Made by a program: the position numbers and the translations under genes
Notes under the pieces: generated by a model
The model's database searches: none
Told to the model about the DNA's origin: nothing
What the model saw: the letters and a program-made list of their open reading frames with translations, nothing else
Shown: piece by piece, positions 2,188-25,335 of the stretch
Numbering within the stretch: the first letter of the stretch is position 1
How the letters are laid out: every line of letters starts with the position of its first letter
Virus record (IMG/VR): IMGVR_UViG_3300046092_000062
Coordinates: 187,866 to 251,865 of that record
Origin: a virus
Reading direction: 5' to 3' (one strand)
DNA: 64,000 nt

Positions 2188-2544
2188 ATGAAATTCTTTC
2201 AAGAAACTACTGACTACAAAGACAAGATTTCAAACGGCATCTACTTGCTGTCAGATGACAAGACACGTATGTTTGCCTATGTTGCACCAGGCAACAACAC
2301 TGCAAAAGAATTCAAGCGCCCGATTCGCATCGACACTCGTGGCCGCAGCTTCAAGCCTGTTACTAATACCTTCAACTATGTGATCCCTGCAGAAGTTGCC
2401 CCAGAAGTCCCGCAGTGGATTGTTAAAGGCAGCAAAGGCGATGAGTACATTGTGCGCAAAGACGGCTTGATGTATTCATGTACATGCAGCGGATTTAAAT
2501 TTCGCGGTAGCTGCAAGCACGTCACGGAGATCAAAGGCGCATGA
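2188..2544 (+). CDS. SWIM zinc-finger protein
   Basis: 118 residues. The last third has the SWIM pattern C-x-C...C-x-H (YSCTCSGFKFRGSCKHVTEI), a zinc-binding module that contacts DNA or proteins. The rest has no recognisable domain. The ATG at 2188 is chosen because it lies 28 bases after the -10 box; the longer frame to 2131 would begin inside the promoter. Its stop overlaps the next ATG (ATGA), making it the first gene of the operon that continues into array 1. Confidence 0.8.
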   Translation: MKFFQETTDYKDKISNGIYLLSDDKTRMFAYVAPGNNTAKEFKRPIRIDTRGRSFKPVTNTFNYVIPAEVAPEVPQWIVKGSKGDEYIVRKDGLMYSCTCSGFKFRGSCKHVTEIKGA

Positions 2545-2750
2545 TTAAACGTCAGTATCATTACTATGGTGGCCGCAACGGCGATGCCTACTTCTGCAAC
2601 TTTGTTGATGCAGCGGGCGGGCAAGAACACATTCGTACTGAACTAGCTAAGTGGAAAGCAACAGTTGCTAAAAGCAAAGCCAAATACACCTACAATGTCA
2701 AGTTCCACGACGAGCAGTTATACATGTTTTTTAGGATCAAGTTTTCATGA
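2541..2750 (+). CDS. LRW-tail family protein, array 1 gene 1
   Basis: 69 residues. Basic middle (WKATVAKSKAKY), then the family tail VKFHDEQLYMFFRIKFS, in which LRW is replaced by I-K-F. The weaker tail codons leave AGGA 12 bases before the next start instead of the usual GAGGTG. ATGA overlaps join it to both neighbours. Function unknown. Confidence 0.7.
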   Translation: MIKRQYHYYGGRNGDAYFCNFVDAAGGQEHIRTELAKWKATVAKSKAKYTYNVKFHDEQLYMFFRIKFS

Positions 2751-2998
2751 CAGAAGCGTGGATATTCGTTAATGGACAGAAGGTTCAGATTCCTCAGCAT
2801 CCTTACCAAGCCAGGGAGTTTAGATGGCATTTGGGCGCAGAGTATAATTCTGCATTGGAGTGGGAAAATCCCGAGTTTGACAACATAAAAACTTGGTGCG
2901 AGCAAACTTGTGTTCCGCATACTTACAGAATGTTTTTGAGAAGTGTTTGGTTCTTTCGTGAGTCCGATGCCTTATTGTGCAAGTTGAGGTGGGTATGA
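2747..2998 (+). CDS. LRW-tail family protein, array 1 gene 2
   Basis: 83 residues with WCEQTC in the middle, the family's W-C-E core, and the tail SVWFFRESDALLCKLRWV. The final codons TTG AGG TGG GTA TGA contain GAGGTGG and overlap the next ATG. Function unknown. Confidence 0.75.
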   Translation: MTEAWIFVNGQKVQIPQHPYQAREFRWHLGAEYNSALEWENPEFDNIKTWCEQTCVPHTYRMFLRSVWFFRESDALLCKLRWV

Positions 2999-3225
2999 AC
3001 TGGCAGTTTTGGCGTAAGCAATATCGAGTGGCTGTGACAGAAAATGATTACAATGCTAAGATTGTAAAGCACATGGGCACTACTGGAAAACTCCATATGC
3101 AGTTTTTCGACTTTGTTAAGCAAGAGTTCAATGCTGATCGTGAGTGGAGTTGGAAGACCAGAGAGAATTTCCTAGTGTTTGATAATGAACATGACTACGC
3201 TATGTTTCTGTTAAGGATGCTGTGA
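2995..3225 (+). CDS. LRW-tail family protein, array 1 gene 3
   Basis: 76 residues; tail FLVFDNEHDYAMFLLRML, with Trp replaced by Met. TTA AGG remains, giving an AAGG ribosome-binding site. The ATG at 2995 is chosen over the frame start at 2977 because it overlaps the upstream stop in the array-wide way. Confidence 0.75.
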   Translation: MNWQFWRKQYRVAVTENDYNAKIVKHMGTTGKLHMQFFDFVKQEFNADREWSWKTRENFLVFDNEHDYAMFLLRML

Positions 3226-3476
3226 TGTTGATCGAACTCGACGATGAATATCGTATGATTGGGTACTACATCGCCGTACTAGAAGATCCAATTGACAGCG
3301 GGCACGATTTGTGGTATCACGAATCATTCAAAGACACCGATGAATGGTGTGAGCAAACCTTTGGGGCGCAGGACATGTGGGGAGAAAATCCTGCTACAGG
3401 GTGGAAGCGTATGCGTAACAGATACTTCTTTACTACAGATGCTGCCCGCGGGTTATTTGTATTGAGGTTTACATGA
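3222..3476 (+). CDS. LRW-tail family protein, array 1 gene 4
   Basis: 84 residues. Start is GTG 3222 in a GTGA overlap, or ATG 3225. Middle motif EWCEQTFGAQDMW, a clear W-C-E-x-x-F-G core; tail YFFTTDAARGLFVLRFT. The end TTG AGG TTT ACA TGA keeps GAGG for the next gene. Confidence 0.75.
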   Translation: MMLIELDDEYRMIGYYIAVLEDPIDSGHDLWYHESFKDTDEWCEQTFGAQDMWGENPATGWKRMRNRYFFTTDAARGLFVLRFT

Positions 3477-3694
3477 TTGAAGTAGATATCGATAAAGAAG
3501 GCGGATATGGTCGTCACCACTGGTGGGAAAACTTTCGCGACTATGCTGAGGAACAGGGGTATAATTTCGATAATGCTGAGAATATCACCAAAGCACTTGC
3601 AGAATGGAACGCTATTGATAAGGACCCAGATTCCACCAAGTTCTACTTTGAAAACGAGCAGGACCACTTGCTGTTTATGTTGAGGTTTACATGA
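3473..3694 (+). CDS. LRW-tail family protein, array 1 gene 5
   Basis: 73 residues, acidic; tail FYFENEQDHLLFMLRFT. It has no W-C-E core. The last five codons are identical in DNA to those of the gene before it (TTGAGGTTTACATGA), consistent with recent tandem duplication of the 3' end. Confidence 0.75.
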   Translation: MIEVDIDKEGGYGRHHWWENFRDYAEEQGYNFDNAENITKALAEWNAIDKDPDSTKFYFENEQDHLLFMLRFT

Positions 3695-3975
3695 AAGTAA
3701 AAGACACACTGCAAATTGATTTGATCTACGGCACACTCCGTCAACGCCTGCGGGAGTTTGTAGCAGAGACTCCTTGCTTGTATACAAATGACGGAGACGC
3801 TGTTAACCTTGTGTGTCATTATTTCCCCTGTTGGCAGTACAATGGTGCTGCACCGTTTGAAGAAGTTATGCTGTGGTGTGAAGAACATTTCGGCCGTGAT
3901 TGGATTTGGAGATTTGAAACAATTTTCTTCAAGCACGAACGTGATCGTGCAGTATTCTTATTGAGGTGGTCATGA
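3691..3975 (+). CDS. LRW-tail family protein, array 1 gene 6
   Basis: 94 residues. Core LWCEEHFGRDWIW at about residue 61, tail FFKHERDRAVFLLRWS. This is one of the best matches to the family consensus. It ends TTGAGGTGGTCATGA, the canonical junction. Confidence 0.8.
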   Translation: MKVKDTLQIDLIYGTLRQRLREFVAETPCLYTNDGDAVNLVCHYFPCWQYNGAAPFEEVMLWCEEHFGRDWIWRFETIFFKHERDRAVFLLRWS

Positions 3976-4193
3976 CAACTCTTTACATCTCCGGGGATTA
4001 CGACCAAAGCCCACTGGCATACAAAAACTTCTATCGAGCAGTGATAGAACCCAGGTTAATGGAAGTACACCGTGAATCAATTAGCGGAAGTGATCTCCTT
4101 AAAGAGTACAATGCACATTGGGATAATACATCTAAGAGCATTGTGTTTGACACTGAACACGATTTGACAATGTTTATGTTGAGGTGGGCATGA
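3972..4193 (+). CDS. LRW-tail family protein, array 1 gene 7
   Basis: 73 residues; tail IVFDTEHDLTMFMLRWA. No W-C-E core; the N-terminal 50 residues are unlike its neighbours, showing how variable the front part is. Canonical GAGGTGG junction. Start at 3972 by ATGA overlap. Confidence 0.75.
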   Translation: MTTLYISGDYDQSPLAYKNFYRAVIEPRLMEVHRESISGSDLLKEYNAHWDNTSKSIVFDTEHDLTMFMLRWA

Positions 4194-4441
4194 TTGTAAA
4201 AGAGTATTACCAAAACATTAACTGTAGCAAACCCAGGGACTACTTTGAGCGTTGGTATGCAGACGTGTGGGCACGACGAATCGGCACAAAGATCGCACAG
4301 CCCGGAGTGTTAGCTCGTGTACTCGAAGAAGAAATTGCTCAAGTTGGTGCTTATCTCGAGGACAAAGATCGCGGGTACAAATTTGTAGCAACATTCAAAG
4401 ACGAGCACGACTATACCATGTTTGTATTGAGGTGGTCATGA
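4190..4441 (+). CDS. LRW-tail family protein, array 1 gene 8
   Basis: 83 residues with a basic, alanine-rich middle (WARRIGTKIAQPGVLARVLEEE) and tail FVATFKDEHDYTMFVLRWS. Canonical junction TTGAGGTGGTCATGA. Start at 4190 by ATGA overlap. Confidence 0.75.
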   Translation: MIVKEYYQNINCSKPRDYFERWYADVWARRIGTKIAQPGVLARVLEEEIAQVGAYLEDKDRGYKFVATFKDEHDYTMFVLRWS

Positions 4442-4665
4442 AACTACGTGCCGACATTCGTCCATACTTTCAGAAGATTGCTGATTACTATTGGGACAAC
4501 ATTGGTCGTGACTTCTACAACGAAGGGCATCACATAACCATTTGGGACTGGCTCAAGCGTGATTACTCTGTGGTTAAGATTGGGCAAATTGGCAGCAAGA
4601 CTGAGTTATGGGTTACATTTCCAGATGAGCAGCACATGACTATGTTTATGTTGAGGTGGACATGA
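4438..4665 (+). CDS. LRW-tail family protein, array 1 gene 9
   Basis: 75 residues. IWDWLKRDYS stands where other members have the W-C-E core; tail VTFPDEQHMTMFMLRWT. The open frame extends upstream inside the previous gene, but ATG 4438 is the coupled start. Junction TTGAGGTGGACATGA. Confidence 0.75.
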   Translation: MKLRADIRPYFQKIADYYWDNIGRDFYNEGHHITIWDWLKRDYSVVKIGQIGSKTELWVTFPDEQHMTMFMLRWT

Positions 4666-4862
4666 AACAAGAGCTAACTATGCGCATGGATTGCGAATAC
4701 ACTTACATTCCATTTGCCAATAGCCGCACCAGCATCGATTGGATAGAAGCACTACTTTGGTGCGAAGAGTTCGAAGGCATTGGACACTTTAGCATGGGAG
4801 GACATGGCATTTACTTCGAAAAGGAAAAAGATGCTATAATGTTTACATTAATCAACTCATGA
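4662..4862 (+). CDS. LRW-tail family protein with decayed tail, array 1 gene 10
   Basis: 66 residues. Core LLWCEEFEGIGHF; the tail YFEKEKDAIMFTLINS keeps the charged and aromatic part but has lost Arg-Trp. The codons TTA ATC AAC TCA TGA no longer form a ribosome-binding site for the next gene, although the ATGA overlap remains. Coupled reinitiation may suffice. Confidence 0.7.
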   Translation: MKQELTMRMDCEYTYIPFANSRTSIDWIEALLWCEEFEGIGHFSMGGHGIYFEKEKDAIMFTLINS

Positions 4863-5140
4863 AAAAGCAATATACAAGAGACTCCCTTATGAAAAAGGCA
4901 CGTATTGAATCCGACCAGCTAAACACTATCTTCCAGAAGTGGGCGGCAAACAATGGGTATAAGACCTCAGGACATTGGATTGATCACCTTGATCGACTTA
5001 ACCTGCGTTACGGCCCTGGCCAAGCGTTTGATCATTATGTTTGGTCATGCGGTGGCCGCATTTACACAGAATACAGCAAGCGTTATGCAGACTTCTTTGA
5101 AGACGAAGATTTGATAATGTTTACATTAAGGCACCTATGA
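4859..5140 (+). CDS. LRW-tail family protein, array 1 gene 11
   Basis: 93 residues, basic N-terminal half; tail ADFFEDEDLIMFTLRHL, with His replacing Trp. TTA AGG leaves AAGG seven bases before the next ATG. No W-C-E core. Function unknown. Confidence 0.75.
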   Translation: MKKQYTRDSLMKKARIESDQLNTIFQKWAANNGYKTSGHWIDHLDRLNLRYGPGQAFDHYVWSCGGRIYTEYSKRYADFFEDEDLIMFTLRHL

Positions 5141-5322
5141 TAACAACTTTACGAGCATGGTCCAGAGTTAGTGTAAGAGACATTCAACCAGCAGTAGCAT
5201 GGTGCAGTGAGAATCTTACCCACAATGATTGGGTGTGCAGTTCGATCCCAAACGACAACGAATTTAGCTTTCGATTCCGTAACGAAAAGATTGCTACAGA
5301 GTTTGCACTGAGATTTGCATGA
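5137..5322 (+). CDS. LRW-tail family protein, array 1 gene 12
   Basis: 61 residues, one of the shortest. Core VAWCSENLTHNDW, tail FSFRFRNEKIATEFALRFA. It is nearly the minimal family unit: core, spacer and tail only. Junction CTGAGATTTGCATGA is a weak ribosome-binding site. Confidence 0.75.
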   Translation: MITTLRAWSRVSVRDIQPAVAWCSENLTHNDWVCSSIPNDNEFSFRFRNEKIATEFALRFA

Positions 5323-5564
5323 TACGATTAGATCTTGTTAAAGACTATGCACCTATTCCGATATGGAACAAATTTGTTGGACACCTGCAAGAACAAGTGG
5401 GACCACAGGCAGTAACTGACGCTTATGTTAATACCGCACTAGCTGAGTACTGTGCAGTGTATTATATGGAAGAGGTGGGTAACATATATGAAAGTTCTGT
5501 GCTACACTGGATTGAGTTTGAAGATGAAGAATTGTACTCTTGGTTTATGTTGAGGTGGGCATGA
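5319..5564 (+). CDS. LRW-tail family protein, array 1 gene 13
   Basis: 81 residues; tail IEFEDEELYSWFMLRWA with an unusually acidic segment. No W-C-E core. Junction TTGAGGTGGGCATGA. Confidence 0.75.
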   Translation: MIRLDLVKDYAPIPIWNKFVGHLQEQVGPQAVTDAYVNTALAEYCAVYYMEEVGNIYESSVLHWIEFEDEELYSWFMLRWA

Positions 5565-5818
5565 TTAGCATATTGTTATCAGACAAGGGCAGTACTCCCG
5601 AACAAGCATGGTGGTGGAAGTTTTTACACGGCACGGATAAACGTAGCGGTCCGTCAACTACAGAAGACCGCATTGAAGCTATCAACTTGGAATTGCTAAA
5701 TTGGTCAGCGCAGCTATGGCGACACGAGCAAACGGCTACGCGCCACAATGCCCGAAGCGCATACATTGATTTCTACGACGAACAAGCGTACACTTGGTTT
5801 GTGCCGAGGTGGTCATGA
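5561..5818 (+). CDS. LRW-tail family protein with Pro-Arg-Trp end, array 1 gene 14
   Basis: 85 residues; tail IDFYDEQAYTWFVPRWS. The family Leu has become Pro (codon CCG), yet the following bases still read GAGGTGGTCATGA, so the ribosome-binding site for the next gene is intact while the protein motif is altered. This is a useful natural test of which level is under selection. Start at ATG 5561 by overlap. Confidence 0.75.
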   Translation: MISILLSDKGSTPEQAWWWKFLHGTDKRSGPSTTEDRIEAINLELLNWSAQLWRHEQTATRHNARSAYIDFYDEQAYTWFVPRWS

Positions 5819-6009
5819 TTGAAATTAAAATCAGCAAGAAACTTCGTAATGTATACGGGGAAAGTGGTACTCAGGTTGCTTGGAAATGGTGCTTAGATAA
5901 CTTTGGCCCACCGGAACCAAACGGTAAGCGTTGGGCATGGGACACTATGCGCACATTTTGGTTTCATAAAGAAGAAGATGCTACACTGTTTGCACTGAGG
6001 TGGTTATGA
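5815..6009 (+). CDS. LRW-tail family protein, array 1 gene 15
   Basis: 64 residues. Core WKWCLDNFGPPEP at about residue 24, then W-x-W and the tail FWFHKEEDATLFALRWL. One of the cleanest examples of the compact form W-C-x-x-x-F-G-P ... F-x-F-x-x-E-x-D. Junction CTGAGGTGGTTATGA. Confidence 0.8.
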   Translation: MIEIKISKKLRNVYGESGTQVAWKWCLDNFGPPEPNGKRWAWDTMRTFWFHKEEDATLFALRWL

Positions 6010-6233
6010 CAACAATTTCAATGAGCCATAATGTTCTAACAAATGCAGGGTGGATCCGCATACCGCTTGACGCTGAAAAAGTTATGCAAGCTCGACGACA
6101 TGAAAGTTATTTTGAATTTTTTGAAACTGCACACATTCGCAACCGGTATGCAATCTTTAGTGTGCCCAATGGATACGATTTCTTTTTTCGAAATAAAAAA
6201 GATGCTACAGAGTTTGTGTTGAGGTGGGCATGA
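6006..6233 (+). CDS. LRW-tail family protein, array 1 gene 16
   Basis: 75 residues, no W-C-E core; tail FFFRNKKDATEFVLRWA. Start at ATG 6006 by ATGA overlap rather than 6000. Junction TTGAGGTGGGCATGA. Confidence 0.75.
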   Translation: MTTISMSHNVLTNAGWIRIPLDAEKVMQARRHESYFEFFETAHIRNRYAIFSVPNGYDFFFRNKKDATEFVLRWA

Positions 6234-6520
6234 CTAAAGAAGAATGGACGAAATGGAATCGCAAGATACAACTAAACAGCATCTACGGTTTAAATCTCTG
6301 TAAAGAAATAGTGGCACCAAGGGATCAAGCACTAACAGCGATACAAAACGCATGGGCTCAATGGCACTGTGATATCAAACACAACGTAACAGACTTTGGG
6401 TTTAAAGACTGGTGCAAGCGTGAGCATGGGTTTGAATACCAACAGAATAGTGACCGGAGTGTTGTCACTACTGTACTTGACGAGCAAAAGTATGCTTGGT
6501 TCTTACTAAAGTGGGCATGA
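6230..6520 (+). CDS. LRW-tail family protein, array 1 gene 17
   Basis: 96 residues. Core FKDWCKREHGFEY, tail TVLDEQKYAWFLLKWA. It ends CTA AAG TGG GCA TGA. The ATG overlapping this stop (6517) opens only a 14-codon frame, so the usual coupled start is broken and the next family gene begins seven bases later in another frame. Confidence 0.75.
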   Translation: MTKEEWTKWNRKIQLNSIYGLNLCKEIVAPRDQALTAIQNAWAQWHCDIKHNVTDFGFKDWCKREHGFEYQQNSDRSVVTTVLDEQKYAWFLLKWA

Positions 6521-6523
6521 AAG

Positions 6524-6733
6524 ATGCAAGTAGAGAAAATGTTCCATCACACTGTGCCTAGCTCTAATGTGTGCATACAAGCCAGTAAATGGTTGCTGGA
6601 AGAGCGTGGATACAAGTTCGTCATTGAAGCCGAAACAGAAGGACGCGGCAACAGTTCTAGATACACTGGCAGATACACATTCAAGTTCTTGTGTGAGCAA
6701 GAGTATATGTGGTTTCTAATGAGGTGGGCATGA
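6524..6733 (+). CDS. LRW-tail family protein, array 1 gene 18, paralogue of 21762
   Basis: 69 residues. From HTVPSSNV onward it matches the array 2 protein at 21762 almost residue for residue (ASKWLLEERGYKF, RYTGRYTFKFLCEQEYMWF). The front is shorter, probably because of an indel next to the junction ATG at 6517, which is now out of frame. Start taken as ATG 6524; ATG 6539 is possible. Tail LCEQEYMWFLMRWA. Confidence 0.7.
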   Translation: MQVEKMFHHTVPSSNVCIQASKWLLEERGYKFVIEAETEGRGNSSRYTGRYTFKFLCEQEYMWFLMRWA

Positions 6734-6734
6734 C

Positions 6735-6914
6735 ATGTTAACATACCGTATGATTGACTGGGTCAACATTCAACAACGCATGATTGAAGGCGGACTCAGT
6801 GATATTCCCAATGGGCGATTTCATGACAGCTACCGTAAGGACGATTACTTGTACTTTATGGTTGAGTTCGACACACCCGAGGATGAAATGATGTTTTTAT
6901 TGAGGTGGGCATGA
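6735..6914 (+). CDS. LRW-tail family protein, array 1 gene 19
   Basis: 59 residues (MLTYRMIDWVNIQQR...), tail VEFDTPEDEMMFLLRWA. The junction ATG at 6730 would give only Met-Thr-Cys before a stop; the real start is ATG 6735, eight bases after GAGGTG. Two adjacent genes in this array thus have a displaced start. It ends TTGAGGTGGGCATGA. Confidence 0.7.
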   Translation: MLTYRMIDWVNIQQRMIEGGLSDIPNGRFHDSYRKDDYLYFMVEFDTPEDEMMFLLRWA

Positions 6915-7135
6915 ACTCAAAACAAAGACGACGTGATCGCAGAGCATGGAAACACGACATTGTGTTTACACACGAACAAGTTTATGAACGTGGTTACAAC
7001 GACATGTGGGACTGGTGTGTTACTGTTTTTAATAACAGGGGCAACAAGTGGAGAGAGCCGTATGGTCCTCCGGGCGTTAGATGGCAGTTTACCAAGCCAG
7101 AATACGCTGTGATGTTTGCACTACGCTGGCAATAA
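6911..7135 (+). CDS. LRW-tail family protein, last gene of array 1
   Basis: 74 residues, very basic N-terminus (SKQRRRDRRAWK), core MWDWCVTVFNNRG, tail WQFTKPEYAVMFALRWQ. With no coupled gene after it, Leu-Arg-Trp is written CTA CGC TGG instead of TTG AGG TGG, so the protein motif is kept without a ribosome-binding site. A terminator follows at once. Confidence 0.75.
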   Translation: MNSKQRRRDRRAWKHDIVFTHEQVYERGYNDMWDWCVTVFNNRGNKWREPYGPPGVRWQFTKPEYAVMFALRWQ

Positions 7136-7136
7136 A

Positions 7137-7162
7137 GTAGTACTTGAGTATTACATTTTTTT
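7137..7162 (+). terminator. Rho-independent terminator closing array 1
   Basis: GTAGTACT pairs with AGTATTAC (one G-T pair), followed by seven T. The sequence is nearly the same as the terminator at 2105 and again runs directly into a promoter. Confidence 0.75.
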
Positions 7163-7164
7163 GG

Positions 7165-7193
7165 TTGACCCAAAATGGTTTTGGTTGTATAAT
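7165..7193 (+). promoter_or_regulatory. Sigma70-type promoter
   Basis: TTGACC (7165-7170), spacer CAAAATGGTTTTGGTTG (17 bases), TATAAT (7188-7193), followed by ATACACATAG as in the promoters at 7498 and 42497. It drives the gene at 7226. Confidence 0.85.
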
Positions 7194-7225
7194 ATACACA
7201 TAGCAAAGCAAAACAGGACTCAAAG

Positions 7226-7492
7226 ATGACACGCAAAATGAATCAACCAAAGACTATTTTGAAGAACATCATGGAAGATGCTTCTTGGCCCAGCGAGGCC
7301 CGTGCAAAAGCAGCTTGGACTGATGAGAAAATTGCTGCTGATTTGGCAGATTTTGCTGAGCAGATGTGGCACAATCAGTACATTGAAGTTGATGTTAGCA
7401 AGGTAACTGGTGACGCTTTCCGTGCAGCAGCCGCAAAGCGCGAAGAATACCTTAAAGATTTGTGGGCCGGTTGCCCAGAAGAAAACATGTAA
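7226..7492 (+). CDS. Hypothetical protein, 88 residues
   Basis: Unrecognised, soluble, mostly helical, with an alanine-rich stretch (FRAAAAKREEYLKDLW). It forms its own short transcription unit, with a promoter at 7165 and another starting six bases after its stop. Expression from a separate early promoter suggests a role early in infection; nothing else can be inferred. Confidence 0.7.
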   Translation: MTRKMNQPKTILKNIMEDASWPSEARAKAAWTDEKIAADLADFAEQMWHNQYIEVDVSKVTGDAFRAAAAKREEYLKDLWAGCPEENM

Positions 7493-7497
7493 AACGG

Positions 7498-7526
7498 TTG
7501 CACCATAATGATTTTGGTGCTATAAT
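7498..7526 (+). promoter_or_regulatory. Sigma70-type promoter for DNA ligase
   Basis: TTGCAC (7498-7503), spacer CATAATGATTTTGGTGC, TATAAT (7521-7526). The spacer is identical to that of the promoter at 42497. Confidence 0.85.
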
Positions 7527-7556
7527 ATACACATAGAACGAAACAAAGGAACACAA

Positions 7557-17899: not shown

Positions 17900-17900
17900 C

Positions 17901-18167
17901 ATGGACAACGTTATTCACAGCAACAAATATTTCCGATTAACTAAATGGCGCCATCGCAAAAGCGACAAGGTGCATTATCGCGTTGAGATGACATACAGTT
18001 GGTTGAATCTGGACCAAGAAGCAGGGGAGAAAAGTTTTCCTGAGCAAGTTCGCGATGTAATCGACCCAACTCGTTGTCGTGCTGGGCAAGCTGGCAACCA
18101 CTGGAAATACCGTAACTTAGAAGAAGCTACAAAAGCCTATACATTTTTAGTAATGAAATTCTCATGA
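17901..18167 (+). CDS. Diverged LRW-tail protein, array 2
   Basis: 88 residues, basic (KWRHRKSDKVHYRVEM), tail YRNLEEATKAYTFLVMKFS. The acidic-aromatic part survives and LRW has become M-K-F. Ends TTC TCA TGA with an ATGA overlap. Confidence 0.65.
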   Translation: MDNVIHSNKYFRLTKWRHRKSDKVHYRVEMTYSWLNLDQEAGEKSFPEQVRDVIDPTRCRAGQAGNHWKYRNLEEATKAYTFLVMKFS

Positions 18168-18445
18168 GTTATAAACTTAAACTAGCACACAAGCATCACG
18201 ATCAATTAGATCAAATTGAAGCATGGCTCAACGCTAACGTTGGCCCTGGTAGCAAACGACATGCAAACAACACCTGGCTCGGTGCCGAAGATTGGTACTG
18301 CTATGAAGAAGCACTAGTTCCGGGCAGCGAGGAAGAGGAAGAAGAGTATTACGACAACGATGACAATCTTGAAGATATTTCAGATTTGATCTTTGTATTC
18401 CGCCGCGAAAGCGATCTGTTAATGTTTAGTTTGAAATGGGCATAG
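18164..18445 (+). CDS. LRW-tail family protein, array 2
   Basis: 93 residues with a strongly acidic middle (EEEEEEYYDNDD-type stretch at about 57-67). Front part IEAWLNANVGPGSK, tail FVFRRESDLLMFSLKWA. The stop is TAG, one base before the next ATG. Confidence 0.7.
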   Translation: MSYKLKLAHKHHDQLDQIEAWLNANVGPGSKRHANNTWLGAEDWYCYEEALVPGSEEEEEEYYDNDDNLEDISDLIFVFRRESDLLMFSLKWA

Positions 18446-18446
18446 C

Positions 18447-18803
18447 ATGTCTAGTCCTTTTAAACTCACAGATCTCCCCAACAACACTTGGTCAGTAACA
18501 TGGACCGAGAATAACTTTGCACATAATGCTAAACAGCGAGACAAGTTAGTAGATATTCTGTTTAGCGAAATTGGATGCCGCGACGTTGGCCTAGGCATTA
18601 AACTAAACAATGGCGAACTAGAAACACTGTGGATTGGTGAAAAAGAGTATTTTCAACGGTCCGACATAGCCCACGGATGGGAAGACATGTATGTTGTTCG
18701 TGGTGTTGTGTTCATTCACGAACACGAAGCTAGGGAGTTTCATCAATTGATGGAAAGTCGATTGGCTTGGTACTACTTAAAGCAAGGTGCAGCAGTTGCT
18801 TGA
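18447..18803 (+). CDS. Diverged LRW-tail protein, array 2
   Basis: 118 residues. VVFIHEHEAREFHQLME resembles the tail's E-x-D-A-x-x-F element, but the chain continues for 15 residues (SRLAWYYLKQGAAVA) instead of ending in LRW. Function unknown. Confidence 0.6.
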   Translation: MSSPFKLTDLPNNTWSVTWTENNFAHNAKQRDKLVDILFSEIGCRDVGLGIKLNNGELETLWIGEKEYFQRSDIAHGWEDMYVVRGVVFIHEHEAREFHQLMESRLAWYYLKQGAAVA

Positions 18804-19014
18804 AATTCCATACCCAACCCTAATGAATGGCAGTCGCACGTTCTCTATGGAAACTCTACAAAAGTGGCTTGACGCACACTTTCCTCAAGAACGTTCCTGC
18901 ATTGTCCGTGTTGCTATTGTTAACAAAGGGCCTGGGAGGTACGGCGACGAACGATGGGCGATTCGTTTTTATCGGGATGAAGATGCAACACTGTTTGGAT
19001 TGTTATGGCAGTAA
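18787..19014 (+). CDS. LRW-tail family protein, array 2
   Basis: 75 residues, GTG start within the previous gene. LQKWLDAHFPQERS in the core position, tail IRFYRDEDATLFGLLWQ. The final TTATGGCAGTAA contains the next gene's ATG. Confidence 0.65.
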   Translation: MQQLLEIPYPTLMNGSRTFSMETLQKWLDAHFPQERSCIVRVAIVNKGPGRYGDERWAIRFYRDEDATLFGLLWQ

Positions 19015-19262
19015 CCTATAAAACTAATCCGGGATTCCCAGGTGTTAATTTTCCCGTGTTGCACCGTGTTGTCTATGCACACACCATCGATGGTGTCCCA
19101 GCACAATGGCAAATCAGCTACAAGGATTATATAGTCAATGAATGGCTTAAAGCAAACACACGCCATCCTTACTACCACAGTCCCGGGTATCTTCGTGAAA
19201 AGTTCATTGAGTTTGAATGTGATGAAGAAGCAGTGCTATTCGCACTAAAGTGGGCAAAGTAA
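19005..19262 (+). CDS. LRW-tail family protein, array 2
   Basis: 85 residues; tail IEFECDEEAVLFALKWAK. VNEWLKANTRHPYY stands in the core position. It starts inside the last codons of the previous gene and ends with a TAATG overlap. Confidence 0.7.
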   Translation: MAVTYKTNPGFPGVNFPVLHRVVYAHTIDGVPAQWQISYKDYIVNEWLKANTRHPYYHSPGYLREKFIEFECDEEAVLFALKWAK

Positions 19263-19492
19263 TGTACAGCAAGACTCACCGATTTTTTAAATTCAAACAC
19301 GTTCCCAAGGACTTTATATGGGGCAGTGAGGAAATTGACCTGTGCCGCCTGCACATTGGTGACAACCGTATCACGATGCCGCTTGTGGACCGCGAATGGT
19401 TTAGTTCGCCCGATGGTGTATGGATTCGACATGATTGTCTGGATAACGAAATCATAACTTGGTTTGCACTGAAAGCAAGCAATGAAGTTTGA
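19262..19492 (+). CDS. Diverged LRW-tail protein, array 2
   Basis: 76 residues, basic N-terminus (KTHRFFKFKHVPK), end RHDCLDNEIITWFALKASNEV. The family tail is recognisable to ALK; Trp is lost and the frame runs five residues past it. AATGAAG supplies the next start. Confidence 0.6.
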   Translation: MYSKTHRFFKFKHVPKDFIWGSEEIDLCRLHIGDNRITMPLVDREWFSSPDGVWIRHDCLDNEIITWFALKASNEV

Positions 19493-19742
19493 ACTGCTAG
19501 AAGGGCGCATACACGGAGCCCGTTACTACACAGTTAGACCAGACTTTAATTGGTGGCTTTCGGGCAGCTTAAACAATACAAATGCCACCTGGCGTGATAT
19601 GTTAGAATGGTGTGTAGAAGTATTCGGTCCTAGCGCAGAAATGGGTGTGTGGGAACCCGGTGCTCGTTGGTATGCTAACAATGCAAAGTTTTGGTTTCGT
19701 AATGCAGAAGATAGGACAGCGTTTTTGCTGAGATGGTCATGA
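19482..19742 (+). CDS. LRW-tail family protein, array 2
   Basis: 86 residues. Core MLEWCVEVFGPSAEMGVW, tail FWFRNAEDRTAFLLRWS, close to the proteins at 5815, 21538 and 22698. Ends CTGAGATGGTCATGA. Confidence 0.75.
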   Translation: MKFELLEGRIHGARYYTVRPDFNWWLSGSLNNTNATWRDMLEWCVEVFGPSAEMGVWEPGARWYANNAKFWFRNAEDRTAFLLRWS

Positions 19743-19972
19743 AACCAGACCTAGTCCAATTTTACTGCGAACGAGATCCCTATTACGCTAAATCACGTGA
19801 GTACTACATGATGAACGTAAATCATTACGAAACTCCTTATTACCTTTGGATGATACAGGAATATCGCACTGTGCTGTTAAACAAACAGGGTAGCTGGAGC
19901 GACAGGGCTGAACAGCATTGGGGCTTTATTAATGAATCGGATAGAACAATTTTTATGTTGAGATGGTCATGA
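19739..19972 (+). CDS. LRW-tail family protein, array 2
   Basis: 77 residues, tyrosine-rich (RDPYYAKSREYYMMNVNHYE), tail WGFINESDRTIFMLRWS. No W-C-E core. ATGA overlaps on both sides. Confidence 0.7.
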   Translation: MKPDLVQFYCERDPYYAKSREYYMMNVNHYETPYYLWMIQEYRTVLLNKQGSWSDRAEQHWGFINESDRTIFMLRWS

Positions 19973-20199
19973 CAACTACTGTTGAATTTGGTAAAGATCG
20001 TTATCACTTACAGGGTGAAATGGAAGAATGGTGCGAGCACAATATTGGGTCTAATCCTCGTTATAGCAACCACGTTTGGTCCAAGCCAGTTGAGTGGGAA
20101 GGGTTAGGCACATGGTGCATGGCTAGTGCGTTTGGCACAACATTTTTCTACTTTAAACATCGCAAAGATGCAACCTTCTTTGCATTGAAATGGAAATAA
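19969..20199 (+). CDS. LRW-tail family protein, array 2
   Basis: 76 residues. Core MEEWCEHNIGSNPRY, tail FFYFKHRKDATFFALKWK. Ends TTGAAATGGAAATAA one base before the next ATG, so there is no overlap and no GAGG. Confidence 0.7.
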   Translation: MTTTVEFGKDRYHLQGEMEEWCEHNIGSNPRYSNHVWSKPVEWEGLGTWCMASAFGTTFFYFKHRKDATFFALKWK

Positions 20200-20200
20200 T

Positions 20201-20563
20201 ATGGATGATCGGAATCTTTGGCACCTGCTATGTGATTGGGTAAAATTTGGTAAGTTTATAGAATGGAAAGAATGGTTTTACTGGACCATTGTGCCTGGCA
20301 CTAGCATTGGGGTCATTTGGCCAAATGGCCCAATTTCTCTGGGTTGTGATCCTGATGGCGAAGAGGTAATCGTCGACTCCGCTGATCCAAACGATCACTA
20401 TCGCCCATGGTTAGAAGAGCATGTCGGGCGTCAGGGCATTGATTGGGAATGGAGAATGGGAACTTTTGGATTTTGGACAGATGAAATAGATACTCTAGAC
20501 ATTAAGTTTCGAGTGGGAAAGACAAAGTATGCTACAATAGCAGCATTGATGTGGGGCCAATGA
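20201..20563 (+). CDS. Diverged LRW-tail protein, array 2
   Basis: 120 residues, tryptophan-rich (WHLLCDWVKFGKFIEWKEWF), acidic. Ends KFRVGKTKYATIAALMWGQ: spacing and A-L-M-W fit the tail, the charged part does not. Function unknown. Confidence 0.6.
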   Translation: MDDRNLWHLLCDWVKFGKFIEWKEWFYWTIVPGTSIGVIWPNGPISLGCDPDGEEVIVDSADPNDHYRPWLEEHVGRQGIDWEWRMGTFGFWTDEIDTLDIKFRVGKTKYATIAALMWGQ

Positions 20564-20763
20564 GAACCAAAACTACAAGAGAACTATATCCGTACCATGT
20601 GCGCTTTAAGCGTACAGGAGATTGGTATGGCAATGATGGTACTTGGTATCAAATTAGCACATGGCTTCGAGAACACTTTGGGCAGAATTGGGAATATCTT
20701 GACAGTATGTTTATGTTCTCTAAGGAAGAACACAAAATGCTTTTTATAATGAGATGGCTATGA
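20560..20763 (+). CDS. LRW-tail family protein, array 2
   Basis: 67 residues. ISTWLREHFGQNWEYL in the core position, tail FMFSKEEHKMLFIMRWL. Start at ATG 20560 by ATGA overlap. Ends ATGAGATGGCTATGA. Confidence 0.7.
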   Translation: MRTKTTRELYPYHVRFKRTGDWYGNDGTWYQISTWLREHFGQNWEYLDSMFMFSKEEHKMLFIMRWL

Positions 20764-21179
20764 CAAAACGCAACACCGTAGTAATGGATATCGAAACCAC
20801 AACAGCAGTAATGCCGCGTGGGTCTTCTTCTGTTTTTCAGGGCATCACAGGTGGAATACATCCTGGAGAAATGATGATTTATGCCGGGGGCAGACAAACT
20901 GGCAAGTCCACACTGTCTTACCATATATTAAAGAGCAGATACTACGAAATGGGCATCAAGGAACAAATCCAGACGTTGGATACGTTTACACTAGATGGTG
21001 CTACATGGTACACTGTACACTGTCGTCCTTCGACTATTAGTGGGTGGGTGCAAGAGCAAGACTCCGATATGTGGTGCCGACACTACAACACAGGCGCACT
21101 GCGAGTTGAATACCCCACGTTTAACAACTACAACATACACGAAGAACTGTATTCAATGTTATTGTTGAAATGGTCATGA
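20760..21179 (+). CDS. P-loop fragment fused to an LRW-type tail
   Basis: 139 residues. The front carries ITGGIHPGEMMIYAGGRQTG followed by KSTLSYHILK (about residues 29-58), a RecA/DnaB-type strand, Walker A loop (GGRQTGKST) and helix. No Walker B or later motifs follow, so it can hardly be a complete ATPase. From about residue 70 it is array-like, ending NNYNIHEELYSMLLLKWS. It looks like an array gene that captured the start of a phage helicase or recombinase gene. Confidence 0.7.
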   Translation: MTKRNTVVMDIETTTAVMPRGSSSVFQGITGGIHPGEMMIYAGGRQTGKSTLSYHILKSRYYEMGIKEQIQTLDTFTLDGATWYTVHCRPSTISGWVQEQDSDMWCRHYNTGALRVEYPTFNNYNIHEELYSMLLLKWS

Positions 21180-21541
21180 AAATCTTAAAACAAACTGTAG
21201 CAGCTAAGACTTGCACCCTCAAAGCCAATTGGACTATTGATCGCTCAGCAGACAATAGCTTTACGATCGGTGATGATACGTGGCAAGAGGTTGGGGCAGC
21301 ACTACGAAAAGAGATTGATGAAGAAATTGTTAACAATATTAGAAGGCATGAGCTTATGTTAAAAGGATGGGTCAAGGCCCCGTTTACTAGCGACAAGTTT
21401 GCTACACCAGGCAACCACCAGATAGCAGAAGTTACTGCATGGATTCACATGAACACCACGGCGCAATATCAAATCTTCGGCCGAGAGTTCTGGTTCTCAA
21501 GCAAGGAAGACTTAACACTGTTTGTACTGAGGTGGGCATGA
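21176..21541 (+). CDS. LRW-tail family protein, array 2
   Basis: 121 residues. A helical front (VGAALRKEIDEEIVNNIRRH) precedes VTAWIHMNTTAQYQ and the tail FWFSSKEDLTLFVLRWA. Ends CTGAGGTGGGCATGA, one of few perfect GAGGTGG junctions in array 2. Confidence 0.75.
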   Translation: MKILKQTVAAKTCTLKANWTIDRSADNSFTIGDDTWQEVGAALRKEIDEEIVNNIRRHELMLKGWVKAPFTSDKFATPGNHQIAEVTAWIHMNTTAQYQIFGREFWFSSKEDLTLFVLRWA

Positions 21542-21765
21542 GCTATACACTGTACCCCGACGAAGACATTCTAAAGAAGCAACGATATATCGTTAAGTAC
21601 AGAGGGAGCCTGTATGGGCACCGCGACGAGATGCTTGCCTGGTGTGTAGAACAGTTTGGTCCACATTCACATGCCTACAAAAATCCACGATGGAGTGAAA
21701 ACTGGGACCGATTCTGCTTTAAGAATGAAAGCGACATGATGCTGTTTATGTTGAGATGGTCATGA
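21538..21765 (+). CDS. LRW-tail family protein, array 2
   Basis: 75 residues. Core MLAWCVEQFGPHSHAY, then W-x-x-x-W and the tail FCFKNESDMMLFMLRWS: the typical compact form. The open frame reaches back to 21439, but ATG 21538 is the coupled start. Confidence 0.75.
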   Translation: MSYTLYPDEDILKKQRYIVKYRGSLYGHRDEMLAWCVEQFGPHSHAYKNPRWSENWDRFCFKNESDMMLFMLRWS

Positions 21766-22028
21766 CAGATACAGATAAATTAGAGTGGTCAGATATTTGC
21801 CGCCATGAGCATAAGTGCAAGGGTGATGAATTGTTATATCACACTGTGCCTAGCTATAGTGTATATGTCAGGGCATCTAAATGGTTGCGGGAAGAGCGTG
21901 GGTACAAGTTTATCAGCGTAGAGGGTGAAACGGAAGAACATAGTGCTGGTTGGCGTTACACGGGTAGGTATACTTTTAAGTTCTTGTGCGAGCAAGAGTA
22001 TATGTGGTTTAAGTTGAGGTGGTCGTGA
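21762..22028 (+). CDS. LRW-tail family protein, paralogue of 6524
   Basis: 88 residues. HTVPSYSVYVRASKWLREER then GYKF and RYTGRYTFKFLCEQEYMWF match the array 1 protein at 6524, and the DNA is also similar (CACACTGTGCCTAGCT in both). It has an intact N-terminus about 26 residues longer. Tail FKLRWS. It is the clearest link between arrays 1 and 2. Confidence 0.75.
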   Translation: MTDTDKLEWSDICRHEHKCKGDELLYHTVPSYSVYVRASKWLREERGYKFISVEGETEEHSAGWRYTGRYTFKFLCEQEYMWFKLRWS

Positions 22029-22315
22029 TGAGTAGACCAGGTTTTAATTCACAAGAGTGGTTTCGGGCCAAGCATGACCCAAAACATGATATGGTACATG
22101 GCGATAGACTGTATTACGTTGAGCCAGGTTGCGAATACGGGTTCAAAGAAGATGACGGATATGTGTGGAATCGCATAAGCTGTAGCTATTGGTTCGGGGA
22201 CTGGATTGAAGAAAATGGCGGTGAGGGACGTTGGCGAGCATACGGCGGCAGGCATCGTGCTATCTACATTGTGCGCGAAGACCTACTAGCGTTTATTAAG
22301 TTAAAGTGGCTATGA
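22025..22315 (+). CDS. LRW-tail family protein, array 2
   Basis: 96 residues. Start GTG 22025 (GTGA overlap) or ATG 22028. CSYWFGDWIEENGGEGRW replaces the core; end YIVREDLLAFIKLKWL. Ends TTAAAGTGGCTATGA. Confidence 0.7.
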   Translation: MMSRPGFNSQEWFRAKHDPKHDMVHGDRLYYVEPGCEYGFKEDDGYVWNRISCSYWFGDWIEENGGEGRWRAYGGRHRAIYIVREDLLAFIKLKWL

Positions 22316-22512
22316 AATACTGGAACAAAGACAAACGTGTTCGGCAAAACCATTGGTATACAATTACTTCGCCTACATGGTGGTCGTATGCTGATACTAA
22401 ACTAGAGTTGCAGAGATTTGACAGTCCGGGTAAGTTTTATCTATATTACGGCAGTAGAACAATTTGGTTTGAGCGTGAACAAGACGCAGTATTTTTTAGA
22501 TTGAAGATGTGA
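22312..22512 (+). CDS. LRW-tail family protein, array 2
   Basis: 66 residues, basic front (KDKRVRQNHW), tail IWFEREQDAVFFRLKM. The last residue (Trp) has been lost to a TGA stop. One base separates it from the next ATG. Confidence 0.7.
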   Translation: MKYWNKDKRVRQNHWYTITSPTWWSYADTKLELQRFDSPGKFYLYYGSRTIWFEREQDAVFFRLKM

Positions 22513-22513
22513 T

Positions 22514-22705
22514 ATGAAGCAATATGGCCTAGCGATTGAACGTTGGGGGCATCCACGTAAGGCAACTATATGGCATTGGCTTAAACAAAACTTTGGCCCC
22601 GAGGGTGATCGTTGGGGCACACAGTATGACTACGGACTGGACAATCTCTGGATGAATGAAGATGTTTACATCATGTATAAATTAAAATGGGAACAACATG
22701 ACTGA
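22514..22705 (+). CDS. LRW-tail family protein, array 2
   Basis: 63 residues. IWHWLKQNFGPEGDRW in the core position (W-x-x-x-x-F-G-P), end LWMNEDVYIMYKLKWEQHD, running four residues past LKW and overlapping the next start by eight bases. Confidence 0.7.
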   Translation: MKQYGLAIERWGHPRKATIWHWLKQNFGPEGDRWGTQYDYGLDNLWMNEDVYIMYKLKWEQHD

Positions 22706-23096
22706 TAAGAATACCTCAGATCAAATGAAAATCTTGATCCCAATGATCCGTAAGGTCATGCCCACAATGATCGCAACTGACATCATTGGTGTGCAGACAA
22801 TGGATATGGGAATCGAACTTGAAACCGGGGAGACTTACGTGGATGAAGCCGCTAGTCATGCAACCGAAAACAACATCGTGGAATGGTATTGGGCACGATT
22901 GCCCCTGTCTGCAGGAGCATTCTGGAACATCAAAGGAACCCAGGCGCATTACAAACAAGTTGATGCATGGTGTGAAGAAACATTCGGACCACGCTGCTCC
23001 AACGAGCATCCTGAATTTATATGGGATAAAATTAACTACCGTTATTGCTTTAAACATTCCGAAGATAGGACAGCATTCGTGCTGAAGTGGGGCTAA
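22698..23096 (+). CDS. LRW-tail family protein with N-terminal extension, array 2
   Basis: 132 residues. The first 60 or so form a hydrophobic, methionine-rich region (MKILIPMIRKVMPTMIATDI) unlike other members. Then core VDAWCEETFGPRCSNEHPEF and tail YCFKHSEDRTAFVLKWG. Ends GGCTAATATT, where the next gene seems to begin with ATT. Confidence 0.75.
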   Translation: MTDKNTSDQMKILIPMIRKVMPTMIATDIIGVQTMDMGIELETGETYVDEAASHATENNIVEWYWARLPLSAGAFWNIKGTQAHYKQVDAWCEETFGPRCSNEHPEFIWDKINYRYCFKHSEDRTAFVLKWG

Positions 23097-23097
23097 T

Positions 23098-23310
23098 ATT
23101 TCACGCTACGTACTGCCAACACAGTCCGAGCAAATGGACGCATGGTTCAATGGCGGGCACTTAATTGTGCTAACAGACATTATGTATTGGAGCGCTCACT
23201 ACCAAGACTTAGCAGACTGGTGTAAAGGAAACGATTCCCAAGTGCAAGGAATGACAGTGGTAGTACCCAATGAAAAAGTATTAACTTTATTCTGCCTACG
23301 CTGGTCGTAA
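23098..23310 (+). CDS. LRW-tail family protein, last gene of array 2, possible ATT start
   Basis: The frame encodes SRYVLPTQSEQMDAWFNGGH, the core LADWCKGNDSQV and the tail VVVPNEKVLTLFCLRWS. No ATG or GTG lies near the junction; ATT 23098 stands exactly where array starts fall, after GAAGTGGGG. The alternative ATG 23134 gives 58 residues. As in the last gene of array 1, the final LRW is written CTA CGC TGG. Confidence 0.6.
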   Translation: MSRYVLPTQSEQMDAWFNGGHLIVLTDIMYWSAHYQDLADWCKGNDSQVQGMTVVVPNEKVLTLFCLRWS

Positions 23311-23320
23311 TAAGTACAGT

Positions 23321-24529: not shown

Positions 24530-24532
24530 TAG

Positions 24533-24561
24533 TTGCGCTAAATGGCATCATATGCTATAAT
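24533..24561 (+). promoter_or_regulatory. Sigma70-type promoter of array 3, leaderless
   Basis: TTGCGC (24533-24538), 17-base spacer beginning TAAATGG, TATAAT (24556-24561). The ATG at 24567 is only five bases beyond the -10 box. Confidence 0.75.
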
Positions 24562-24566
24562 ACAGT

Positions 24567-24782
24567 ATGGAAAAGAAAATCAAATGGCTACACGAAGGTA
24601 CACTACTTCGTGCCACTGTGCCCGTTGCACCACGTGGATTTGAAAGATCCCTTCGCGAAGAAGACATGGATCCAATCCAAGAATGGTGTGACGAAGTTGG
24701 GTACGGACGCCGCATGAGCTTTGACACGTTTAAATTTAAAACACAGGCAGAGATAACTGCATTTCTACTAAAATGGTCTTAA
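24567..24782 (+). CDS. LRW-tail family protein, array 3 gene 1
   Basis: 71 residues. Core IQEWCDEVGYGRRMSF, tail FKFKTQAEITAFLLKWS. The start codon lies at the expected transcription start, as in the first gene of array 2. Its last codons contain the next ATG (AAATGGTCTTAA). Confidence 0.75.
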   Translation: MEKKIKWLHEGTLLRATVPVAPRGFERSLREEDMDPIQEWCDEVGYGRRMSFDTFKFKTQAEITAFLLKWS

Positions 24783-25045
24783 TCGACAATGACATCAGCA
24801 GCATGTACCCAGGCAGCGTTGAAAACCCAAGAAGCAGAGTATTTTGGGCACAAATTGATGAGGAACATCGCATGAGAGTACTAAACAAGAAGTATTGGCC
24901 GTATCATGTTAAAGCCGAGACAACCGATAAACAAGAGCGCTGGTGCTATGAGAATCTCAAAAGTAGCGAATGGCGTAATGTTGGCAGTTACTTTGCATTC
25001 AAGCGAGAGCAAGATGCAATGATGTTTACACTAAAGTGGTCCTAA
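24773..25045 (+). CDS. LRW-tail family protein, array 3 gene 2
   Basis: 90 residues. Core QERWCYENLKSSEW, tail FAFKREQDAMMFTLKWS. Starts within the final codons of gene 1, ends with a TAATG overlap. Confidence 0.75.
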   Translation: MVLIDNDISSMYPGSVENPRSRVFWAQIDEEHRMRVLNKKYWPYHVKAETTDKQERWCYENLKSSEWRNVGSYFAFKREQDAMMFTLKWS

Positions 25046-25335
25046 TGGATTTTGAATTTGTCGATAAATGCAGAGCCAAACTAAAACCTCTTGGGGTTAA
25101 AGTTAGCATTGACATCATTGATGATTGCTACTATGCAACATTTGATGGGACCAAGTCCTTAATGAAAACTAAGTGGGTTGAACTGTTTGGTATTTCATTT
25201 GGGCAGATTGCAATGCGTACACTAATGGAATTCCACTCTGCCTTAGATGTAAAAGAGCCTGCTGATAACATAGCAGTTTTTAAAATTGGCACCCTTTTTG
25301 ATATACTGAGCAAGCAACATGAGCAGACACTATAG
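25045..25335 (+). CDS. Hypothetical protein following array 3
   Basis: 96 residues. IAVFKIGTLFDILSKQ near the end faintly recalls the tail, but there is no acidic segment and no LRW. Hydrophobic beta-strand pattern in front (GVKVSIDIIDDCYYATF). ATG 25045 overlaps the previous stop; the frame also contains ATG 25036. Overlaps the next gene by 17 bases. Confidence 0.6.
   Translation: MDFEFVDKCRAKLKPLGVKVSIDIIDDCYYATFDGTKSLMKTKWVELFGISFGQIAMRTLMEFHSALDVKEPADNIAVFKIGTLFDILSKQHEQTL

Follow-up and report, generated by a model that had tools for sequence, protein, structure and literature searches.

Tandem arrays of small genes with a common C-terminal domain and a repeated cassette junction in a T4-like virus

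The 64,000-nt window, by which we mean the whole stretch of DNA that was analysed, comes from a 320,767 bp virus record which encodes gp23, a gp41-like helicase and NrdA, and thus qualifies as a T4-like phage. On its + strand lie three arrays of small genes (2541–7135, 15115–23310 and 24567–25045) whose products share a C-terminus with an FxLRW tail, and which we refer to as LRW members. With a 22-residue tail profile we found 34 ORFs at i-E <1e-4, and 33 of these lie within 1.9–25.1 kb of the window; the best shuffled ORF reached an i-E of 0.65. A second-round profile (at least 10 bits) kept 37 ORFs in the window, every one on the + strand, with no reversed and one shuffled false positive among 17,543 ORFs. 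Counting weaker and degenerate members, the window holds 50, of 58–139 aa, and two more are found elsewhere in the genome. The proposal of a first-pass annotation that some fifty tandem small paralogues have a common C-terminus is therefore borne out, with 37 by the strict profile and about 50 with the weaker members, although parts of its layout required correction. Its third array, placed at 24.6–25.3 kb, holds for 24567–25045 but not for a third gene, 25036–25335, which is a non-member, as are four ORFs inside the otherwise confirmed array 2 (15751–15966, 17116–17445, 17423–17899 and 18447–18803). Among its stray members, 1938–2114 (+, ending ALKFTNT) was upheld by the tail profile (iE 9e-5), 55631–55846 (+, YQLKYVNSL) is weak (iE 0.8), and the one at 26994, which ends FMFIKLTAKPLA, was dropped. 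An Rfam search of 1–30 kb gave no match.

Array 1 is preceded by a candidate sigma70-like promoter, TTGACC-17-TATAAT (2131–2159, +), predicted from an 11/12 consensus match, and the first gene of its operon (2188–2544, +) is a non-LRW gene for a SWIM-like zinc finger, with a match to PF04434 (E 0.015) below the Pfam cut-off. The tail profile called the first member at 2541–2750 and further members, all +, at 2995–3225, 3473–3694, 3691–3975, 3972–4193, 4190–4441, 5137–5322, 5319–5564, 5815–6009 (of the WCxxxFG type) and 6735–6914. The member at 4662–4862 (+), with the tail FTLINS, was found with both profiles, and that at 4859–5140 (+, FTLRHL) with the second-round profile.

A promoter-like site with a 12/12 consensus match, TTGACA-17-TATAAT (15080–15108, +), stands before array 2. 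Promoter-like sites over the whole region are not above shuffles; judging from the two consensus matches, the arrays would be read early from sigma70-type promoters. All members of array 2 and array 3 are on the + strand. The tail profile called the first member of array 2 at 15115–15297 and others at 15523–15750, 15938–16354 (a conserved long subfamily), 16354–16572, 18164–18445, 19005–19262, 19739–19972, 19969–20199 and 20560–20763, as well as both members of array 3 (24567–24782 and 24773–25045). It matched weakly to 15288–15545, which is extended at its C-terminus, and to a probable degenerate member at 19262–19492 (WFALKASNEV). The second-round profile added 16572–16838, with a degenerate tail, and 18823–19014. 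By reading of the sequence we recognised three further probable degenerate members: 16832–17116, which has a C-terminal extension (CMLQLRYAG...) and was missed by the profile, 17901–18167 (FLVMKFS), and 20201–20563, which is conserved in other viruses. The member at 22514–22705 has an extended tail.

Profile–profile comparison connected all 26 subfamilies of members over ~50 columns, with 164 of the 325 pairs exceeding 90% probability, typically over ~49 columns, and reversed controls yielding none. AlphaFold2 models of two subfamilies have the same beta-alpha-beta-beta-alpha core, in which the FxLRW tail forms the last helix; the member at 19482–19742, from the largest subfamily, was modelled with pLDDT 84. 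The shared part is thus a real alpha/beta domain of ~50 residues and not a five-letter tail. The first-pass annotation had allowed that only a short tail might be shared among unrelated folds, and this is contradicted by the profile homology and by the common core of the two models; its reading of one family with a common fold stands, while its suggestion of variable binders stays a hypothesis. A tail common by chance or through Shine-Dalgarno sequence alone was ruled out by the profile–profile comparison and the shuffled and reversed controls. The shared domain had no family match in Pfam, PHROGs, NCBIfam or PADLOC, the credible matches being to gp23 and P-loop leaders, and PADLOC gave nothing noteworthy. 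A structural search of the PDB with the core returned no significant match (best E 1.1), and in a viral library significant E values were obtained solely to uncharacterised proteins of uncultured phages. After these searches we ruled out a known family or fold for the domain.

We found that the tail codons TTG AGG TGG NCA TGA (LRW-x-stop) also hold the next gene's Shine-Dalgarno sequence and ATGA start. The tail is at once the end of the domain and the ribosome-binding sequence and start of the next gene, and through this overlap the translation of neighbouring cassettes would be coupled. Since a sample gathered by DNA pattern is biased to AGG, codon claims are based on the virus's own genome and a protein-based sample. 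Among 20 coupled genes of the window, 15 have AGG and 5 have AGA as the tail Arg codon, while AGG makes up 5.6% of the virus's Arg codons; in the sample gathered by protein similarity, 74% of tail Arg codons are AGG against a background of 7.3%, and the −4 overlap is the commonest junction. LRW itself is present in 72% of the coupled genes, but in 33% of the 15 uncoupled ones. The last genes of array 1 (6911–7135, +, with no Shine-Dalgarno) and array 2 (23134–23310, called with the tail profile) retain LRW as CTA CGC TGG. Uncoupled members could be expected to revert to other Arg codons; both window cases have done so, but 4/5 of those in the second sample retain AGG, and the reversion is not general.

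Comparison with the relative G010, whose flanks are 88–95% identical, showed single genes missing, added or replaced at the repeated junction. It lacks 2747–2998, 3225–3476, 5561–5818 (cleanly missing from the relative L094/G010), 6524–6733 and 22312–22512 (also called with the tail profile), and has a different member in place of 6006–6233 (as in L094). The gene at 6524–6733 is a paralogue of 21762–22028, and in L094, where it is missing, the crossover lies inside GTGGGCATGA. G010 has four additional members; a paralogue of 4438–4665 (called with the tail profile) stands before its 3972 orthologue, and three members follow its counterpart of 21762–22028. It has no orthologue of 6911–7135 and no close one of 21538–21765, a WCxxxFG-type member called with the tail profile; the member at 22025–22315 (IKLKWL) was identified from sequence and this comparison. 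Whole genes have therefore been gained, lost or replaced at the repeated junction, and the exchange may proceed by recombination via the shared junction sequence. Over 40 orthologue pairs the pooled omega is 0.14, so the members are under purifying selection, which rules out rapid positive selection on them. Leaders, the N-terminal parts, evolve faster than cores (omega 0.3–1.0 versus 0.08–0.6 in four genes), with leader omega <1 in most cases. The first-pass statement that front parts differ freely is true between paralogues but not between orthologues, whose fronts are mostly kept across viruses. Variation is mainly by whole-gene swapping and capture of N-terminal modules.

Several leaders resemble pieces of core phage proteins, a feature which, like the dual-coding Shine-Dalgarno sequence and the cassette junction, the first-pass annotation had missed. 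Residues 11–37 of 22698–23096 correspond to a gp23 fragment (the GVQPM region at T4 residue 113), matching PF07068 at E 3.2e-6, over the gathering score. Residues 1–56 of 21176–21541 correspond to residues 159–218 of the virus's own major capsid protein (43% identity), a match below the Pfam cut-off but with E 4e-7 to its own gp23. Residues 30–60 of 20760–21179 resemble the Walker A segment of a replicative helicase (GGRQTGKS), and 6230–6520 (+) has a leader matching the RNR active-site motif (NLCKEI). The motifs NLCxE, RQxGKS and VQPM are far above shuffles in members. Among the RNR-like leaders, whose matches span 8–10 residues, NLCxE occurs in 7 members versus 0.013 shuffled, and NxTxGIEP in 2 versus 0. 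Of 120 scanned members 12 matched gp23, and no other Pfam family was matched by more than one member. About half of the 24 array-bearing records contain gp23 fragments; these invariably come from the same three segments, which turn up in many viruses and are joined to at least six different cores. A single core subfamily may carry gp23, helicase plus RNR, RNR plus gp23 or other leaders. Leaders are exchanged between cores, several being fragments of gp23 and replicative helicase and, probably, of RNR. Most members have no recognisable fragment, and the predominance of conserved motifs among the recognised leaders may partly reflect ascertainment, as fragments of variable proteins would escape notice. 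In the AlphaFold2 model the gp23 leader is disordered (pLDDT ~50) on a core of ~90. The gp23 fragments score nearly equally against own-group and GAP32-type gp23, which would fit an origin in the virus's own gp23 or in that of a foreign phage alike.

Loci in other viruses were gathered by DNA pattern and by tighter protein alignment, giving more than 120 uncultured viral loci with members, many in arrays. Among sequenced phages, window 1–25 kb had no DNA relatives, and tblastn of four members gave no or weak matches. The earlier impression that such arrays are absent elsewhere thus holds for sequenced isolates but not for uncultured viruses. In 257 Gb of bacterial genomes there were 12 pattern matches, 11 of them single, which we take as chance; L197 alone had five. 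We found no description of such arrays in the literature.

We tentatively favour, while thinking it somewhat likelier to be wrong than right, a repertoire for conflict with the host. The folded domain would be a common scaffold or recruiter, the N-terminal part would decide the partner, and most members would bind host proteins, expressed early from coupled cassettes. Captured leaders would act as competitive mimics, occupying host factors or immune sensors that recognise gp23, helicase or RNR. This mimic step is the least certain part of the proposal. Gp23 triggers immune sensing by Lit through Gol (PMC3014915), CmdTAC senses gp23, with no escape mutants found (PMC11618068), and a capsid protein triggers CapRel (PMC9712102); we count capsid proteins being known immune triggers in favour of mimicry. 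RNR or helicase pieces are not known as sensor ligands in the literature that we consulted. A gp23 mimic could also trigger CmdTAC or Lit instead of blocking them, and the faster evolution of leaders is explained equally well by relaxed constraint and by an arms race. A further reading, which we consider unlikely, is a protein-level epitope library, in which T4-like viruses would repeatedly take up short, strongly conserved gp23, helicase or RNR segments, at times two or three in a row, before a scaffold domain, and exchange the units as coupled cassettes that block host immune sensors or rival phages.

It is quite possible, if on balance doubtful, that the leaders are evolutionary debris, left where recombination at gene starts now and then fused to a member, in frame, a piece of a gene that is abundant or lies close by (gp23, nrdA, gene 41), and that the folded domain alone works, in ordinary host-takeover proteins. 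The faster change of leaders than cores, the disorder modelled for the gp23 leader and the directly seen swapping at junctions are consistent with this, as are array neighbourhoods elsewhere that include T4-type replication genes (by reading, nrdB-like and uvsW-like). However, random capture should sample many genes, whereas the same three gp23 segments sit on at least six cores and gp23 is the sole Pfam family matched more than once; leader omega below 1 in most cases also argues against debris. Leaders might instead poison the capsid, helicase or reductase of a co-infecting T4-like phage, as dominant negatives in superinfection exclusion. We regard this as improbable: the sources are oligomeric core proteins of T4-like phages, and the fragments are about equally close to own-group and GAP32-type gp23, but fragments so highly conserved would hit the virus's own proteins too, and the loops of Walker A and the RNR active site are buried instead of lying at interfaces.

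That LRW is conserved purely as nucleic acid, with TTG AGG TGG as the next ribosome-binding site, is very improbable, and for the domain largely refuted. The strong AGG preference in coupled genes and the drop of LRW in the 15 uncoupled ones would fit, but homology spanning ~50 residues, strong purifying selection, the CTA CGC TGG codons ending arrays 1 and 2 and the AGG kept in 4/5 uncoupled genes of the second sample would not; the effect remains a partial cause of R over K in the tail. We give the least credence of all to the idea that leaders direct members to the phage head in the manner of T4 internal proteins, with capsid segments as tags. This would suit the gp23-derived segments but leaves the RNR and helicase leaders unexplained, and the promoters look early.

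The arrays have partial parallels in known systems. The zinc-ribbon expansion of Bacillus phage G (~35 copies; PMC7824862) is likewise a one-family expansion of small proteins in a giant phage; it differs in fold and is described there as lineage-specific, in a passage that mentions neither cassette junctions nor captured fragments. Lit, CmdTAC, CapRel and Thoeris are host sensors, whereas here the capsid segment belongs to a small phage protein. Gol is described as lying in the first quarter of gp23, where conservation is highest (PMC3014915), and may overlap the reused N-terminal segment, which contains GVQPM (T4 residue 113). Integron gene cassettes are likewise single-gene units swapped at a repeated junction, but the junction here, of ~15 bp, is coding sequence and ribosome-binding site. 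The −4 stop/start overlap is shared with ATGA-overlap coupling in general (PMC6728339), except that here the Shine-Dalgarno lies within the upstream gene and the coupling sequence also encodes a conserved protein motif, which recurs in gene after gene. Sinorhizobium phage Phosso, the Pseudomonas PA5oct group and Agrobacterium Atu_ph07 have single WCxxxFG...FxL proteins with the same C-terminal pattern, although these are isolated or in small divergent clusters and of weak similarity. Sequenced phages almost entirely lack the domain, which is nevertheless present in more than 100 uncultured viral loci. The novelty is the cassette architecture, and the function is one that we infer: in this modular organisation, one DNA stretch is the domain end, the next ribosome-binding sequence and the joint for gene exchange. 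That the same conserved gp23, helicase and reductase segments were captured repeatedly suggests that their recognition is a selective force, and the captured segments name peptides for testing against host defences.

The virus record is 320,767 bp long (the window being its positions 187866-251865) and is T4-like, since it encodes a full-length gp23 (2574-3773), NrdA and a gp41-like helicase. A profile made from the last 22 residues of window members found 34 ORFs at i-E <1e-4 (best shuffled ORF, 0.65), all 34 on the + strand and all except one within 1.9-25.1 kb. A second-round profile kept 37 window ORFs; over 17,543 ORFs, false positives numbered 0 in the reversed control and 1 in the shuffled one. 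Including weak or degenerate members, we counted 50 genes of 58-139 aa in the window, in agreement with the about fifty small genes with an LRW tail reported in the first-pass annotation. The gene at 26994, which it had listed as a stray member, and the third gene of array 3 (25036-25335) proved to lie outside the family.

Members from many viruses were grouped into subfamilies, and profile-profile comparison of 26 of these gave >90% probability for 164 of 325 pairs (0 pairs >50% with reversed partners). A typical pair aligned over ~49 columns, well past the last residues, and by this comparison the shared part is one domain rather than a mere tail. AlphaFold2 modelled 19482-19742 with 24 relatives (pLDDT 84, pTM 0.74) as beta-beta-alpha-beta-beta-alpha, the first helix being the WCxxxFG stretch and the last DRTAFLLRW. 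The model of a second subfamily (L083) has the same beta-alpha-beta-beta-alpha core (pLDDT about 90). The fold had no match in the PDB (best E 1.1), its significant matches in a viral structure library were all uncharacterised proteins from uncultured phages, and no family in Pfam, PHROG, NCBIfam or PADLOC describes the domain.

In coupled genes the tail is usually encoded TTG AGG TGG NCA TGA (Leu-Arg-Trp-x-stop), placing GAGGTGG a few bases upstream of the next gene's overlapping ATG; the window has 19 such junctions at ≤2 mismatches (0.5 expected). The tail arginine is AGG in 15 and AGA in 5 of 20 coupled window genes, compared with virus-wide shares of 5.6% and 18.9%. Both uncoupled window arginines are CGC, with LRW nonetheless kept. 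A second sample, gathered by similarity of protein sequence, comprised 460 members at 80 loci, every one on the matched strand. Its junctions overlapped by 4 bases in 179 cases and by 1 base in 46, and AGG made up 74% of tail arginines against a 7.3% background. Reversion to other arginine codons is not general, because AGG was used in 4 of 5 uncoupled arginines there. Coupling through ATGA overlaps is established in other systems (PMC6728339), and we infer translation coupling between array genes from their sequence.

Around the arrays, identity between the window and the related virus G010 is 88-95%. Its arrays lack 2747, 3225, 5561, 6524 and 22312 as single genes; 21538 has no close orthologue and 6911 no orthologue there, 6006 is replaced, and extra members lie ahead of the 3972 orthologue (one) and behind that of 21762 (three). 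Where 6524 is absent the breakpoint can be seen, 6230 running from its end (AAAGTGGGCATGA) straight into the 6735 leader, inside GTGGGCATGA; the repeated junction therefore probably serves as a recombination site. The sole close paralogue pair between arrays, 6524-6733 and 21762-22028 (62-64% identity), is an apparent duplication.

Consensus-like sigma70 promoters precede array 2 (15115-23310; 12/12) and array 1 (2541-7135; 11/12) and suggest early expression. The box TTTTTTGGTTGACC(17)TATAAT is common to around 2120-2160 and 7155-7220, and short stretches of the relative's promoter regions align to the window at more than one site (7134-7220, 7162-7218, 7496-7545), suggesting a repeated early-promoter element. 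Heading the array 1 operon, 2188-2544 is SWIM zinc finger-like (CTCSGFKFRGSCKH; PF04434 E 0.015, below cut-off). Array 2 contains non-members at 15751-15966, 17116-17445, 17423-17899 and 18447-18803; those at 17116 and 17423 belong to clusters that recur close to arrays in 14 and 8 viruses.

The junction DNA pattern matched at least 119 stretches in uncultured viral contigs. Of the 122 loci searched, the window's own genome excluded, 120 carried members, at up to 18 in 9 kb. Bacterial and archaeal genomes (257 Gb) gave 12 matching stretches, 11 of them single. A 6.4 kb contig binned with a Bacteroidetes genome (L197), probably viral and possibly a host hint, has five matches. In sequenced phages, matches to members were absent or weak; Sinorhizobium phage Phosso has a small group of divergent DAMxFKL proteins (5307-7525) and, near tRNA-His, a short gene annotated histidyl-tRNA synthetase (4096-4686, 196 aa).

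Several leaders, the parts preceding the shared core, resemble the virus's own proteins. Comparison within the genome identified the front of 21176-21541 as a gp23 fragment (residues 159-218; 43% identity, E 4e-7) and that of 22698-23096 as another (67-91; 56%), the latter also over the Pfam Gp23 cut-off. The front of 20760-21179 has a Walker A segment nearest to replicative helicase or UvsX, and 6230-6520 carries NLCKEI, which we take to be the RNR active-site motif (SNLCTEINLP in the virus's own NrdA). Besides the main gp23 gene, the genome has a second ORF, outside the window at 305715-306242 (- strand), that encodes YAPYIP, a T4-type capsid protein motif (MTGKGMYYAPYIP). Among 120 diverse members of other viruses, Pfam found Gp23 in 12 and each other family in one. 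In 24 array-bearing records Gp23 occurred as full genes in 7 and as short pieces over cut-off in at least 11, with further pieces below it; each piece maps to one of three parts of the model (about 2-59, 124-223 or 312-329). The leader motifs occur in the members far above shuffled expectation: NLCxE in 7 members (0.013 expected), RQxGKS in 3 (0.007), VQPM in 9 (0.11) and NxTxGIEP in 2 (0).

Leaders and cores are differently combined. On the core subfamily KYKFSRAKWY...PDAWSRW the leader differs among viruses (gp23, gp23+gp23, RNR-like+helicase+RNR-like, helicase+RNR-like, RNR-like+gp23, or unrelated), and gp23 leaders are found on at least 6 different cores. Leaders transfer between cores, because those of loci L026 and L133 are 84% identical (dS 0.53) while the cores are 49% identical with saturated dS. 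Several gp23 leaders are closer to gp23 itself than to other leaders, suggesting several captures.

Leaders may be debris, with only the shared domain functional; this is the main rival to the mimic reading that we tentatively favour. The gp23 leader of L083 is modelled as disordered (pLDDT about 50), and in four fragment-bearing genes leader dN/dS was 0.41, 0.32, 0.39 and 1.04 against 0.08, 0.09, 0.12 and 0.59 for the remainder, the fourth having few substitutions; this faster evolution may reflect either relaxed constraint or an arms race. Pooled dN/dS was 0.14 (40 orthologue pairs, window versus G010), and these results speak against the genes being junk as well as against rapid positive selection acting on them as a whole. 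In the favoured reading, captured leaders would act as competitive mimics. Sensing of capsid proteins is proven for several bacterial immune systems: Lit responds to the gp23 Gol peptide (PMC3014915), CmdTAC to gp23, for which escape mutants were not found (PMC11618068), and CapRel (PMC9712102) and Thoeris (PMC11312562) also respond to capsid protein. However, a capsid mimic might switch such sensors on, and capsid mimicry leaves the RNR-like and helicase pieces unaccounted for. The arrays as a whole would supply small proteins that can be exchanged one for another and that interact with host targets to the phage's benefit, the mimic role of captured leaders being the least certain part of this reading.
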